Below are positions 47,290 to 52,103 of a DNA stretch of 64,000 nt, piece by piece. Position 1 is the stretch's first letter. Every line of letters starts with the position of its first letter. The translations under genes were made by a program, and so were the position numbers. The notes beneath the pieces are model-generated. The model was given only the letters and a program-made list of their open reading frames with translations, was not told the DNA's origin and did not search any database. Location of the stretch: assembly GCA_028287305.1 (NCBI GenBank), contig JAQBPX010000002.1:62001-126000 (forward strand). Reading direction: 5' to 3'. The DNA is from Gemmatimonadota bacterium (lineage in GTDB: Bacteria > Gemmatimonadota > Gemmatimonadetes > Gemmatimonadales > Gemmatimonadaceae).

Positions 47290-49023
47290 TCAGTGCGACG
47301 GCAGCAGCGATGGCGCGGGCGATGTTCCCTCGACGCGCGATTCCGCGCGCGCGGGCGAGGTCACGACGACGGCAGGGGGAAGCTCGATCACGAAGCGCGC
47401 GCCGCCGGCCGGCGAGCTCTCGATGCGCACCACGCCCTCCTGCCGCTCGATCAGCTCCCGCACCACGGCAAGCCCGATCCCGCTCCCGGCGACCGACGAG
47501 TTGGCATCGCGCGGCAGGCGACGGAAGGGCTCCCACACGCGCTCGCGCTCCGACGCGGGAATTCCCGGCCCCTCGTCCTCCACCGCGACGCGCGCGCGAT
47601 CGCCGCCAGTGAGCGTGATGCGCACGTCCTGTCCATCGGGGCCGTACTTCACCGCATTGTCCAGGAGGTTGATGAGCACCTGCCGCAGCGCGCCCGCGTC
47701 CACCATCGCGCCCACGCGCTCGTCGAGCTGCAGCGTGAGCGTCACGCGTCGCGCGCGCGCCAGCGGGGCGAAGGCGTCGCGCACTTCCATGAGCAGGGGC
47801 GCCAGCGCCACGGTCTCCACGCGCAACGGCACCTTGCCCCGCTCCCCGCGCTCGAACGCCAGTACGGTGTCGACCAGGTGCGAGAGGCGGCGCGCCTCCT
47901 GGTCCACGATCTCGAGGGAGCGCTGGCGTTCCTCCTCGTTCCGGATCCAGCCCATGCGCAGCAGCTCCGCGAACATGCGGATCTGCGCGAGCGGCGTGCG
48001 CAGCTCGTGCGACACGCTCGACACGAAGTCGGCCCGCATGCGCGCCAGCGCGGCCTCGCGCCGCAGCTGCCGGAACGCCACGACGATCAGCGCGAGCGTG
48101 AGCGCCAGGAGCCCCAGGATCATCGGCACGCGGCTCGGCGCCGCCGCGCCCACCAGGAGCTGGTTGGCGACGTCCGGCTTCAGCGTCGCCTCCACCGTGA
48201 GCGCCGACAGGAAGCGCTGCTGGATCTGGTACGAGGACCGATAGGCGGACTTGTACTGCTTCTGCGACGCGTACACCACGTGGCCTTCGTCGTCCGTCAC
48301 GCGAATGGAGACCATCGAGTCGGAGCGCAGCTTGCCCGTGATGGAGGGGGGCAGCAGTGGCCACTCACGCATCACCTGCGGGAAGATCGCCTGGCCGAAC
48401 GCCTCGGGAGAGTTCACCAGCCCGTACGCGATCACCGGTGTGTTGGCCGTGTCGCGCACCACCGAGTAGGCCACGGCGCGGTGCTGCCATCCCACCTTTC
48501 CGACGAACGCCACGGCGCGAAAGTTCATCTTCGCGTATTGCGCCACGTGATGGCGCAGGCTGTCCACCAGCCATTGCCGCTCGGCCGCGTCGGGCGCCGA
48601 GTCGCCGGCGATCGCCACCGCGCCATTGCGCAGGTCCACGCGGAAGTAGTACGCCGCGGGGAGCACGAACGCGCAATTGCAGCGCTTCACCTCGTCGTTC
48701 GCGTCGATCAGCATCGTCGGCGCGGGCAGGTGAGACAGGTCCGCCGGCCCGAGGTCGGACACGGGCCGCATCAACTCCGAGATCGAGAGGTAGATCTCCT
48801 CCTTGGCCGAGGAGGCGAATTCCCAGGCGGCCACGCCCGCGTATTCGCTGAGGGCCGTAGTCGCCGTGCGCCGCTGGTCACGTTCCGCGCGCCATCCCTG
48901 CAGCGCCAGCGCCGCCATGAACACGAGCGCGGCCACCAGCGCGGCGAGCGTCGGCAGGCGCCGTACCCGGTGGCGCAGGTGGCTGAGGCGCGAGGCGCCC
49001 TCGGGCGGGGGAGCGGGGACCAT
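47290..49023 (-). CDS. Membrane sensor histidine kinase
   Basis: 577 aa. Two membrane helices (about 25-45 and 298-318) flank an extracytoplasmic sensor of about 250 residues that contains a CNC motif (KRCNCAF) and no recognised sensor family. The kinase has H-box SVSHELRTPLAQIRMFAELL with His339, N-box INLLDNAVKYG, G1 VEDEGPGIP and G2 GSGIGLAVV. The C-terminus is a Pro/Ser-rich tail. Its partner is the OmpR-type regulator just downstream. TATGAT lies 5 nt before the ATG, so translation is probably leaderless. Confidence 0.94.
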   Translation of the reverse strand: MVPAPPPEGASRLSHLRHRVRRLPTLAALVAALVFMAALALQGWRAERDQRRTATTALSEYAGVAAWEFASSAKEEIYLSISELMRPVSDLGPADLSHLPAPTMLIDANDEVKRCNCAFVLPAAYYFRVDLRNGAVAIAGDSAPDAAERQWLVDSLRHHVAQYAKMNFRAVAFVGKVGWQHRAVAYSVVRDTANTPVIAYGLVNSPEAFGQAIFPQVMREWPLLPPSITGKLRSDSMVSIRVTDDEGHVVYASQKQYKSAYRSSYQIQQRFLSALTVEATLKPDVANQLLVGAAAPSRVPMILGLLALTLALIVVAFRQLRREAALARMRADFVSSVSHELRTPLAQIRMFAELLRMGWIRNEEERQRSLEIVDQEARRLSHLVDTVLAFERGERGKVPLRVETVALAPLLMEVRDAFAPLARARRVTLTLQLDERVGAMVDAGALRQVLINLLDNAVKYGPDGQDVRITLTGGDRARVAVEDEGPGIPASERERVWEPFRRLPRDANSSVAGSGIGLAVVRELIERQEGVVRIESSPAGGARFVIELPPAVVVTSPARAESRVEGTSPAPSLLPSH

Positions 49024-49028
49024 GTTCC

Positions 49029-49034
49029 ATCATA
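49029..49034 (-). promoter_or_regulatory. -10 element, leaderless sensor kinase
   Basis: TATGAT on the minus strand, 5 nt before the ATG at 49023; five of six matches to TATAAT. Confidence 0.45.
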
Positions 49035-49103
49035 ATGGCGGCTGGAGCGGCCGGCTGTCAGCGATCTGTCAGGCCGCCGCTCGCCCTTCCCGGGCGGACG
49101 CGG

Positions 49104-49109
49104 TAGCTT
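49104..49109 (+). promoter_or_regulatory. TANNNT -10 element, leaderless start at 49117
   Basis: TAGCTT followed by exactly 7 nt and ATG. Same hexamer and spacing as at 36095-36107. Confidence 0.5.
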
Positions 49110-49116
49110 CGCGAAG

Positions 49117-49809
49117 ATGGCTTCCCGCCCGTCACGGCCTACCTCGCCCGCTCAAGCTTCGCTCGCCGACCTTACCGCGGCTCCCGTGCGCACGCTCGGG
49201 AGCGCGGTGCTGGCCTCGGCCGAGCGAATCGCCGCTGCCCTGGCGCTCGAGCAGGCCGAGTTGCCGGCGACCCTCGCGAAGTCGAGTGGGGAGTGGAAGG
49301 GCTCGGAGGTGGAGATCGTCAGCCGCGCGTGGAAGGGGAGCAGCGTCGCGTGGGCGCGCCTCGCCTGCCTGCACGGCGAGGGCGTGGAAGCGGCGAGCCT
49401 GCTCGTCATCAGTCGCTCGTCGTACGCGCTCCCGACCCTCGGCGCCGACCTCGTGTCCATCGGGGGCCGGGGAGGAATGGTCAGCGCGGGACTCGAGCTC
49501 GACCCCGTGGGAGACGCACCCGTCCGTCGCGCGGTCCGCATGCCCCGCGCGCGCGTAGCCGGCGAGCGACTGCCGCGTGTGGCGCAGATGCTCGATGCAT
49601 TCGTGGATGAATGGATCACCACCGCGCGCGTCGCGCGCGAGGTGGACCCGCTCCTTCATCCCACCGTGCTGCGCGACCAGGAAGCGTTCGCCCGCGCGCA
49701 TCGCACGGGCGACAAGTCGCTCGGCCTCATCGCGCGCATCTTCGACCCGCGGTGGGCCGAGAAGTTTTTGGCGCAGGTGTTGTTTCCGGACCTGGGCTCG
49801 ACGCGGTAG
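49117..49809 (+). CDS. Possible ferredoxin-dependent bilin reductase-like protein
   Basis: 230 aa, soluble. The central motif YALPTLGADLVSIGG, followed by SAGLELDPV, matches the LPxxGxDxV ... DLxP core of ferredoxin-dependent bilin reductases (PcyA/HY2 family), including the catalytic Asp (here Asp111). The C-terminal RWAEKFLAQVLFP also fits their ending, and the length is close to the usual 240-250 aa. The His that partners this Asp in PcyA seems absent. No heme oxygenase or photosynthesis gene is nearby, so substrate and activity are open. If the match is wrong, this is an orphan hypothetical protein. Confidence 0.45.
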   Translation: MASRPSRPTSPAQASLADLTAAPVRTLGSAVLASAERIAAALALEQAELPATLAKSSGEWKGSEVEIVSRAWKGSSVAWARLACLHGEGVEAASLLVISRSSYALPTLGADLVSIGGRGGMVSAGLELDPVGDAPVRRAVRMPRARVAGERLPRVAQMLDAFVDEWITTARVAREVDPLLHPTVLRDQEAFARAHRTGDKSLGLIARIFDPRWAEKFLAQVLFPDLGSTR

Positions 49810-49857
49810 GGCGGTTTGGGGATTGGGGTTTGCGGCTTGCGGAACTGCATCCCGGCA

Positions 49858-50523
49858 TCATCCCGCCCGCGCCGGCCACAGCTCCGTTTGCGGCAGCTCT
49901 CCCTCGAGCTGCAGGCGCACGCGATCGGCCAGCGCCTCGATGGCGGCGGGATCGGACTGCAGGTCGTAGTCGCGCACGTCGAGAAAGAGCACGGGGCAGT
50001 AGCGAAATCCCGCGACCCACGTTTCGTACCGCTCATGCAATTGCGCCCAGTACGCCTCGGGCGTGTCCTTCTCCATCGCGCGACCGCGCCGCTGGATGCG
50101 CTCGAGGATCACGGGGAGCGGCGCATAGAGATAGATGAGCAGCCGCGGCGGGCGTGCTGCGGGGCTGTAGAGCAGCTCGCGATAGAGCTGGCGGTAGAGC
50201 TGCCAGTCGTCGTCGCCGAGCAGCCCCTGGTCATGCAGGCCGCGCGCGAAGATCTCCGCGTCCTCGTACCAGGTGCGGTCGAGGATCCAGCTTCCGCCGG
50301 TGCCGCGCATGCGTCGCAGGCTCGCGAACCGCGTGGCGAGGAAGTGCAGCTGCAGCTGCAGCGCGTGCGTCCGCATTCCCTCGGGCCCGTCGTAGAACTT
50401 CTCGAGCCACGGGTTGTCCTCGTCCACGCTCTCGAGCGCCAGCTGCAGCCCGAATCGCGCGGCGAGCGCGCGCGTGAGCGTGCTCTTGCCGGCACCGACC
50501 ATTCCCGCGACGCCGAGGATCAT
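49858..50523 (-). CDS. Deoxynucleoside kinase
   Basis: 221 aa. P-loop GMVGAGKST (7-15), the dNK-type DRTWYEDAEIFA (equivalent of the D-R-S substrate motif) and LID-like RIQRRGRAMEK. It phosphorylates deoxyadenosine, deoxyguanosine or related deoxynucleosides to monophosphates for salvage. DeoC elsewhere in the window handles the opposite, catabolic direction. The start lies 99 nt downstream of the Rieske gene stop. Confidence 0.9.
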   Translation of the reverse strand: MILGVAGMVGAGKSTLTRALAARFGLQLALESVDEDNPWLEKFYDGPEGMRTHALQLQLHFLATRFASLRRMRGTGGSWILDRTWYEDAEIFARGLHDQGLLGDDDWQLYRQLYRELLYSPAARPPRLLIYLYAPLPVILERIQRRGRAMEKDTPEAYWAQLHERYETWVAGFRYCPVLFLDVRDYDLQSDPAAIEALADRVRLQLEGELPQTELWPARAG

Positions 50524-50622: not shown

Positions 50623-51048
50623 CTACCCGATGGTCAATGTATCCGTCGCCGCCACGTAGCTCGTGCTGAACGCCCGCAGCGAGCGGCCCGCGGGGCCCTC
50701 CACCACGTGTCCGTCGCTCGCGAACTGCGACCCGTGCGTGGGACAGTAGAAGCGCTGTCCCTGCACGCGCGTGCGGTTGACCTCGTGCGTGCACGTCATG
50801 TCGAACGCCGAGAAGGTCGCGCCGCCGGTGCGCACCACCGCCACCTGCGTCAGCACCTCCACCGGCTGCCCGATGGTGGCGAGCGCCGCGAAGTCCCCGA
50901 CCTTGATCGTGGTCGGTCCGCTCAGGGTGGCCGACGGCCCCAGCCCGATGATGCCGTCGCCACACGCAGCCACCAATGCCGCCACCGCCGCAAGCGCTGC
51001 GGAACGACCGAGAAACTCACGCCGGTTCAGGCAGTCGTCACAGGACAT
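50623..51048 (-). CDS. Tat-exported Rieske [2Fe-2S] lipoprotein
   Basis: 141 aa. Twin-arginine signal NRREFLGRS followed by a lipobox-like ALVAAC. Rieske cluster ligands are complete: Cys86 and His88 in CTHE, Cys102 and His105 in CPTHGS. The N-terminus has a CDDC pair just before the twin arginine, similar to the CTGC pair of the next Rieske protein upstream. It is the last gene of a compact operon with two membrane proteins and a second Rieske. The expected location is the periplasmic face, transferring electrons to or from the membrane cytochrome. Confidence 0.93.
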   Translation of the reverse strand: MSCDDCLNRREFLGRSAALAAVAALVAACGDGIIGLGPSATLSGPTTIKVGDFAALATIGQPVEVLTQVAVVRTGGATFSAFDMTCTHEVNRTRVQGQRFYCPTHGSQFASDGHVVEGPAGRSLRAFSTSYVAATDTLTIG

Positions 51049-51069
51049 CGGTCGTTCCCCGTTCCCTTT

Positions 51070-51594
51070 TTAGAGGCGAACCAGCGCAGCCTTCCACTCC
51101 GCGGCATCATCGTCCTCGCGCAACAGCTTGTCCACGTCCACCACCAGGTTCGCGCCGTCGCGACGGATCGCATACCGATCCATGCTCCGGGTCGCGCGCC
51201 CCTCGATGAACTCCCCGTCCATCCGGTAACGGGACTTGTGCTTGGGGCACTGGAAGCGCGACTCGCTCGCATCCCAGCGCAGCGCCGTGTTCTGGTGCGG
51301 GCACGCCAGCCCGAAGGCGTACGCGACCCCCGCGCTGCGCGCGATGATCACCGACTCGTCCTTGTCGATCTGCACGCCGTCCGCGGCGGGAATGGGGTAC
51401 GCGTGCTCATTCCGCGCGCCGCCTTCGCGGCGGCCCGACACGAACTCCAGCGGCAGCGCGCGCGCCACCGACGGGGTCATCCCCGCTGCCACGAGCGCGC
51501 CAAGGGCCAGGCGCCCCATGTCGCGCAGGAACGCGCGACGGTCGCCAAGGGCCTCACATCCGGTGCAATCGTCCGGTGCTTCATGCTGCGTCAT
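51070..51594 (-). CDS. Tat-exported Rieske [2Fe-2S] protein
   Basis: 174 aa; start at 51594, before a Tat-like signal (DRRAFLRDMG, then a hydrophobic stretch ending VARA). Rieske ligands are Cys98 and His100 in CPHQ, and Cys116 and His119 in CPKHKS. It lacks the Gly-rich CTHLGC...CPCHGS pattern of bc1 Rieske proteins, so cluster potential may differ. An N-terminal CTGC precedes the twin arginine. The spacing to its neighbours is 21 and 35 nt, so it is co-transcribed with the second Rieske and two membrane proteins. Confidence 0.92.
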   Translation of the reverse strand: MTQHEAPDDCTGCEALGDRRAFLRDMGRLALGALVAAGMTPSVARALPLEFVSGRREGGARNEHAYPIPAADGVQIDKDESVIIARSAGVAYAFGLACPHQNTALRWDASESRFQCPKHKSRYRMDGEFIEGRATRSMDRYAIRRDGANLVVDVDKLLREDDDAAEWKAALVRL

Positions 51595-51629
51595 GCAATC
51601 CTCGACGTCGGATTTACGAGAGTGAATGC

Positions 51630-52103
51630 TCAGGCCGCCTCGACGAGCACGACGCCGAGCAGGGTGATCAGGAGCCACAATGCCAGGCTGATGACCGCGC
51701 TCCGGCGCAACGCGCCCCACCGTGCGCCCCGCTCGGCCCGCTGCATCAGCAGCCCATTCCCGAGCAGCGCGAGCACGAGCGCCATCTTGCTCCAATACAC
51801 CAGCGAGACCGCAAAGGTCTCCACGTCCGACGCGAACAGCAGCACGCCACTGAGCACGGTCACGACGAGCGCGCCGATCACCACCCGGTGCGTACCCGCG
51901 AGATCGAGCAGGTGGCGACGCTCGGCGTCCGCGTCACCCGCCGCAACCCGCAGCGTCGAGCGATCGGCCGCCACCGCGATCCCGCCTCCCACCAGCAGCG
52001 CCCCGAGATGCGCGAAGGTCACTGCGACGGACACCACCTTGGAATGGGAGTACAGCTCCGACCAGGGCTTCACCGCATCGGACAGCGTTTCTACGAAGGG
52101 CAT
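51630..52103 (-). CDS. Four-helix integral membrane protein of the Rieske operon
   Basis: 157 aa with four transmembrane helices (about 23-46, 72-92, 99-119 and 132-155). His32 lies within helix 1 and His72 at the start of helix 2, positions that could ligate one heme; His20 and His64 flank the membrane. No family is recognised with confidence (a CopD- or b561-like fold is possible). It lies 5 nt downstream of the predicted cytochrome b gene. Role by context: quinone or heme-carrying membrane subunit. Confidence 0.75.
   Translation of the reverse strand: MPFVETLSDAVKPWSELYSHSKVVSVAVTFAHLGALLVGGGIAVAADRSTLRVAAGDADAERRHLLDLAGTHRVVIGALVVTVLSGVLLFASDVETFAVSLVYWSKMALVLALLGNGLLMQRAERGARWGALRRSAVISLALWLLITLLGVVLVEAA

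Follow-up and report, generated by a model that had tools for sequence, protein, structure and literature searches.

The open reading frame (ORF) at 49117–49809 on the plus strand of the window, by which we mean the whole 64,000-nucleotide stretch of Gemmatimonadaceae DNA analysed here, begins with ATG and runs uninterrupted to encode a 230-aa protein resembling the ferredoxin-dependent bilin reductases (FDBRs), as judged by profile match and structural model, and the motif quoted in the original prediction is present in its translation. The codon-usage score peaks in the ORF's own frame (0.365, compared with -0.09 and -0.32 for the forward-shifted frames and 0.07, 0.21 and -0.33 for the opposite strand), and is lower than that of all 14 window ORFs with which it was compared (0.43–0.67). 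A Pfam scan identified the divergent neighbour as a histidine kinase (47290–49023, minus strand) and the convergent neighbour as a deoxynucleoside kinase (49858–50523, minus strand). Flanked in this way by minus-strand genes, the FDBR gene is probably transcribed alone. A promoter scan of 48900–49950 produced one minus-strand match, located before the histidine kinase gene, and none for the FDBR gene, and no RNA families were found in the window at the Rfam gathering score. No globin, heme oxygenase (HO), V4R or B12 genes were recognised by Pfam among the ten ORFs neighbouring the FDBR gene. We note that two adjacent Rieske [2Fe-2S] domain proteins are encoded nearby (50623–51795, minus strand).

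The original prediction had recognised a PcyA/HY2-like core in this protein, and the profile search it recommended bore this out, with the Pfam family Fe_bilin_red (PF05996) matching at 70.3 bits (E 2.5e-19; cut-off 31 bits) and the sole other Pfam row, CobT, falling below its cut-off. All five FDBR equivalogs of NCBIfam were also matched, in each case far below the cut-off (the best was PcyA with 36 vs 206 bits), a pattern which says that the protein is FDBR-like yet none of the named enzymes. PcyA was found in the PDB by a single-sequence phmmer search with the 230-aa protein (9.3e-7), compared with 4.9e-19 for a profile built from three Gemmatimonadaceae FDBR rows.

For structure prediction we used an alignment (A4) of the window protein, its two Gemmatimonadaceae relatives (from the Gemmatimonadetes MAG RYN_360 and the Gemmatimonadaceae MAG Bin6.2, hereafter G211 and G413, with G000 the genome of the window) and 23 phage FDBRs. 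As A4 contains FDBRs, the resulting AlphaFold2 model (mean pLDDT 85.8, pTM 0.82) is not independent of the FDBR assumption, whereas the profile match is. Residues 7–22 of the model have pLDDT values <50 and the rest is well ordered, with the FDBR-type seven-stranded alpha/beta/alpha sandwich present; this was the fold on which the original prediction had been made to depend, and it was therefore not refuted. In a Foldseek search of the PDB the best 46 rows were FDBR or red chlorophyll catabolite reductase (RCCR) chains (top 1.2e-10), including two PcyA chains within a Chlamydomonas complex, with CPO chains next. A structural aligner placed the model closest to PcyA 2g18_D (Z 23.6, rmsd 2.6, 209 residues aligned), followed by PebB (23.1), HY2 (21.9), PcyX (5owg; 19.2) and PebS (18.6–19.0), and the identity with PcyA over the structural alignments was 18–20%.

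These comparisons also bear on whether the protein might not be an FDBR at all but an RCCR-like or coproporphyrinogen-oxidase-like (CPO-like) protein, or one carrying a convergent motif. RCCR (Z <=17.8) and CPO (Z <=15.8) do share the fold, and the PebS rows come near RCCR, but the PcyA, PebB, PebA and HY2 rows are higher (Z 21.4–23.6), and both the significant Pfam match and all five NCBIfam matches are to FDBR families. RCCR or CPO membership was rejected on these scores, and we regard any non-FDBR reading as very improbable and largely refuted. Between the two options first offered, a diverged tetrapyrrole reductase or a convergent motif, the profile match, the fold and the full-length alignment agree on the former and practically exclude the latter. 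The 230-aa protein is confirmed as a genuine FDBR homologue by family and by predicted fold.

The active site is less conserved than the fold. In A4, with codon places counted along the plus strand, the PcyA His74, Glu76, His88 and central catalytic Asp105 columns are occupied in the window protein by Arg81 (49357–49359), Ala83 (49363–49365), Ser94 (49396–49398) and Asp111 (49447–49449; also placed by the match to PcyA in the PDB), respectively. The catalytic Asp is thus retained and the partner His lost, as originally proposed, and Glu76 is lost too. The same columns read R/A/S/E in G211 and R/A/N/D in G413, and H/E/H/D in 23/23 phage rows, which is expected of rows gathered as relatives of a phage PcyA. 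Glu76, His88 and Asp105 are the catalytic residues of PcyA (PMC10151467; PMC9800206), and as Glu76 is described as needed for 18-vinyl reduction (PMC10151467), phycocyanobilin would not be expected as a product here. With His88, Glu76 and His74 replaced and the central Asp kept, the window protein is not a PcyA. Its D199 falls in the column of PcyA D220, adjacent to that of N219; the second Asp of the PebB/PebS pair corresponds to GtPEBB Asp-219 (PMC6755814).

The window protein is also shortened. The window and G211 proteins each have 112 residues from the central Asp to the LF motif, compared with 142 in G413 and 136–140 in the 23 phage FDBRs, and the 24–30 residues that the two lack, which would fall between the final two model strands, include the LPxW...FS segment. 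Alignment and model place the site of the missing stretch at about residues 130–141 (49504–49540, plus strand). Known FDBRs probably have this part of the chain close to the substrate, and without it the window protein might bind its substrate less well.

Such losses raise the question of whether the gene encodes an enzyme. It could instead specify a bilin-binding protein without reductase activity, acting as a carrier or scavenger, or be a decaying gene, and the replacement of three of the four PcyA active-site residues compared, the lost stretch, the orphan locus, the Glu for Asp substitution in G211 and a codon score below those of the 14 compared ORFs would all be in keeping with this. However, the ORF is open and scores best in its own frame, the central Asp is kept, the model shows good order everywhere but at the N-terminus, and activity was measured for pre-PcyA enzymes that have neither His88 nor Glu76 (PMC10151467), and we consider the loss of reductase activity rather unlikely.

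The original prediction had assumed that FDBRs normally make bilins for phytochromes or phycobilisomes, and this needs correcting, as FDBRs of non-phototrophic heterotrophs have already been published as pre-PcyA enzymes and proposed as the source of cyanobacterial PcyA (PMC10151467). In the same source, Asp105, His88 and Glu76 are all absent from pre-1, pre-2 has Asp105 with Asn at position 88 and is encoded in a three-gene cluster with a B12-binding protein and a globin, and pre-3 has Asp105 with Thr at position 88 and belongs to an Fe-S/V4R/globin/HO cluster. The window protein differs from pre-1 in having Asp111. It is like pre-2 (Chondromyces CAP_1520; PMC10151467) in coming from a heterotroph and in having the central Asp but no Glu76 or His88, but has Ser instead of Asn at position 88, is 24–30 residues shorter and is not part of a cluster. 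With pre-3 it shares the central Asp and a hydroxyl residue at the His88 place (Thr there, Ser here), but the Fe-S/V4R/globin/HO cluster is not found alongside, where there are two Rieske-domain ORFs among the ten neighbours. PcyA has the same fold and Asp105 and is the best structural match, but its Glu76–His88–Asp105 triad is replaced by Ala83, Ser94 and Asp111 and there is no equivalent of His74. PcyX shares the fold and also has no Glu76 (PMC10151467), but is phage-borne and a weaker match than PcyA or PebB. The window protein departs from a defining residue of PcyA, pre-1, pre-2 and pre-3 and for this reason we do not file it under any of them; it is similar to heterotroph pre-PcyA enzymes but has the residue pattern of none of the three published lineages, and it may be either a new FDBR branch or a drifted member of pre-2 or pre-3. 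The main text of PMC10151467 does not name Gemmatimonadota, although it does mention "other bacterial lineages" in connection with pre-1, and the published trees may include some.

FDBR genes are rare amongst the relatives of this bacterium. PF05996 matches, counting G000, were found in 2/395 genomes of the phylum, 2/394 of the class and 3/179 of the family (these sets overlap), and in one of 14 controls, a cyanobacterium. The three Gemmatimonadaceae genomes are G000, G211 and G413, and the window protein shares 33% identity with the G211 and 32% with the G413 protein. In our phylogenetic tree the three formed one clade (100/99) apart from the 23 phage FDBRs and unresolved inside, and it should be noted that this tree has long branches and deviating composition and was constructed without published pre-PcyA, RCCR or cyanobacterial rows. 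When used as a query, the window protein matched one of 59 genomes, namely G000; a single-protein scan of genome contigs gave no close relatives and the three-row profile recovered only G211 and G413, so that neither yielded Myxococcota or other pre-PcyA rows. Transfer from phage was considered and rejected, as the window protein had only one weak PHROG match (7.3e-6) and the G413 FDBR matched 3/50,697 phage records, these being cyanophage PcyA (2e-6, 24% identity). Viral contigs searched with the FDBR profile (A1) gave no relative, and neither the G413 FDBR nor its globin matched anything in plasmids.

In G413 the ORF for a B12-binding protein is followed, after a 7-base gap, by that for a 260-aa globin, which in turn overlaps the FDBR ORF by 4 bases. 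Pfam assigns no family to the globin, which bears the RGMC motif reported for BBAG-2 globins (PMC10151467). Its model (pLDDT 75, from a two-row alignment) gave no Foldseek match <0.001, with hemoglobins and 14-3-3 chains also listed, and in the best 50 rows of the structural aligner the first half of the globin is matched to photocobilin, phycobiliproteins and fluorescent proteins (Z 15.3–17.2). With Asn at position 88, Asp105 and the B12-binding/globin/FDBR cluster, G413 has the published pre-2 arrangement in a Gemmatimonadaceae MAG. G211 encodes a 240-aa protein related to the G413 globin (31% identity) four bases from the FDBR gene. This adjacency of globin and FDBR genes in two relatives suggests that the FDBR serves B12/bilin light sensing. 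However, BBAG-2 globins bound biliverdin and not the reductase product (PMC10151467), which makes such a role of the reductase less certain even in pre-2 clusters.

A profile built from the G413 and G211 globins matched at least 12 of the 179 family genomes, with mostly 14 candidates scored in each genome. Among them is G000 (3.2e-7), where the match falls on the globin half of a globin+B12 protein of 362 aa encoded on contig C27, separate from the FDBR contig. This protein matches photocobilin 8j2x (4.7e-25) through its B12 domain (i-Evalue 0.018 for the globin stretch by itself), and its Pfam Phycobilisome match is below the cut-off (15.8 vs 22.2 bits). Like the photocobilins or photoglobins (PMC10979010) it has globin and B12 domains with W, EH and ExH residues spaced as in SasPcob; compared with those described there, it has the globin-then-B12 order with an ABM-domain protein encoded before and a histidine kinase after. 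We infer that the 362-aa protein is a possible client of the window FDBR, and the likeliest one.

The ABM-domain ORF on C27 overlaps the start of the globin+B12 gene and has an N-terminal ABM domain (PF03992, 2.4e-14) which is nearest to the IsdG/HmuQ heme-degrading enzymes, far below the equivalog cut-offs (32.6 vs 130 bits). Of the 11 fused loci found, which come from ten genomes, five (L016, L020, L021, L023 and L024) have an ABM ORF immediately before the globin+B12 gene. By eye, all five ABM ORFs have Ser at the place of IsdG Asn7 and keep the His at the place of His77, which we take to be functionally relevant positions in IsdG. These ABM proteins are a possible source of bilin for the globin+B12 receptors. 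We also note that the ABM / globin+B12 / histidine kinase run (L020:389-3335; L032:5410-8356) is downstream of two tRNA genes.

The original prediction was right in stating that no heme oxygenase or photosynthesis gene is near, and for three Pfam families this extends to the whole of G000 (rated 100% complete), which had no match to PF01126 (HO-family heme oxygenase), PF00360 (PHY) or PF00124 (Photo_RC). PF01126 was matched in 3/14 controls and 13/179 family genomes but in none of the three FDBR genomes, of which G413 is just 72% complete, and amongst the 12 globin genomes found only G089 has a match. The description of the protein as lying outside a phototrophic context agrees with the lack of a Photo_RC match but need not mean outside light sensing, because G000 encodes a photocobilin-like protein. 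All three FDBR genomes are among the 12 globin genomes found in the 179 (hypergeometric 2.3e-4), although this co-occurrence is partly by construction, as G413 and G211 built the globin profile and only G000 is independent; for this one case the chance is 10/177 = 0.056.

Taking these results together, we think it reasonably probable that the window gene encodes an FDBR of the pre-PcyA kind which reduces bilin by two electrons in support of bilin/B12 light sensing. Its substrate would be a linear tetrapyrrole, in all likelihood biliverdin, bound on the face of the sheet and protonated by D111, and single electrons from ferredoxin would bring about the two-electron reduction, probably at the A ring and with a product of the phytochromobilin type; the pre-2 enzyme that was assayed likewise converts biliverdin to phytochromobilin (PMC10151467). 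The reaction might set the bilin pool of B12/bilin light sensing, represented here by the photocobilin-like protein on C27. Counting against this are the location of the FDBR and photocobilin-like genes on different contigs, the Glu at the Asp position in G211, and the lowest codon score of the ORFs compared.

The absence of PF01126 from G000 would also be consistent with a retuned FDBR which reduces a tetrapyrrole other than the biliverdin made by HO, such as the product of an IsdG-like (ABM) enzyme, with the shortened stretch altering the pocket. The ABM ORF with IsdG/HmuQ as its nearest families overlaps the start of the photocobilin-like gene, ABM ORFs directly precede globin+B12 genes in the five loci noted above, and the stretch is missing alike from the window and G211 proteins. 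We nonetheless find this reading fairly unlikely: the ABM match is well short of its cut-off and has Ser at the Asn7 place, the ABM gene is tied to the FDBR gene by the shared genome alone, and G413, with a full-length FDBR, is likewise without a PF01126 match. A more far-reaching version, which we put forward as distinctly unlikely, is that some Gemmatimonadaceae carry out bilin/B12 light sensing without HO, with an IsdG-like ABM enzyme encoded beside the photocobilin opening heme and a shortened FDBR lineage (the window protein and that of RYN_360, which share Ser in place of His88) reducing the bilin for the receptor. If true, a photoreceptor pigment would be made from heme by a path that bypasses HO, and the FDBRs of pre-PcyA grade would gain a fourth lineage.

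To the FDBRs of heterotrophs these results add the Gemmatimonadaceae, a shortened variant whose active site differs, and genomes in which a reductase and a globin of the bilin type occur without any heme oxygenase being recognised. Two questions are thereby made directly testable, namely the substrate of these reductases and the origin of the bilin. In the literature we found nothing joining bilin reductases with gemmatimonads, or photocobilins with bilin reductases.

The globin and FDBR genes of G211 sit behind a paa gene cluster (L006:194-4260) in which PaaA and PaaC were identified by PF05138, and paaB, paaD and HPPD- and homogentisate-dioxygenase-like ORFs by reading; we know of no reason for a link with phenylacetate breakdown. 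Such a link was rejected for G000, where PaaA/PaaC matches exist but the sole FDBR and globin matches are on other contigs. The PaaA/PaaC-family matches of G000 are at the ends of contigs C29 and C35 (L119, L122 and L123), as if split by assembly. Finally, the 260-aa G413 globin (L008:668-1450) resembles a tandem duplication of a photoglobin domain, as one half matches the other (6.9e-7) and both match the globin domain of G000 (6e-13 and 9e-10; pairwise, with composition correction off), whereas the halves of the G211 globin (L006:816-1538) match the G000 domain weakly (6e-5 and 9e-5) and not each other.
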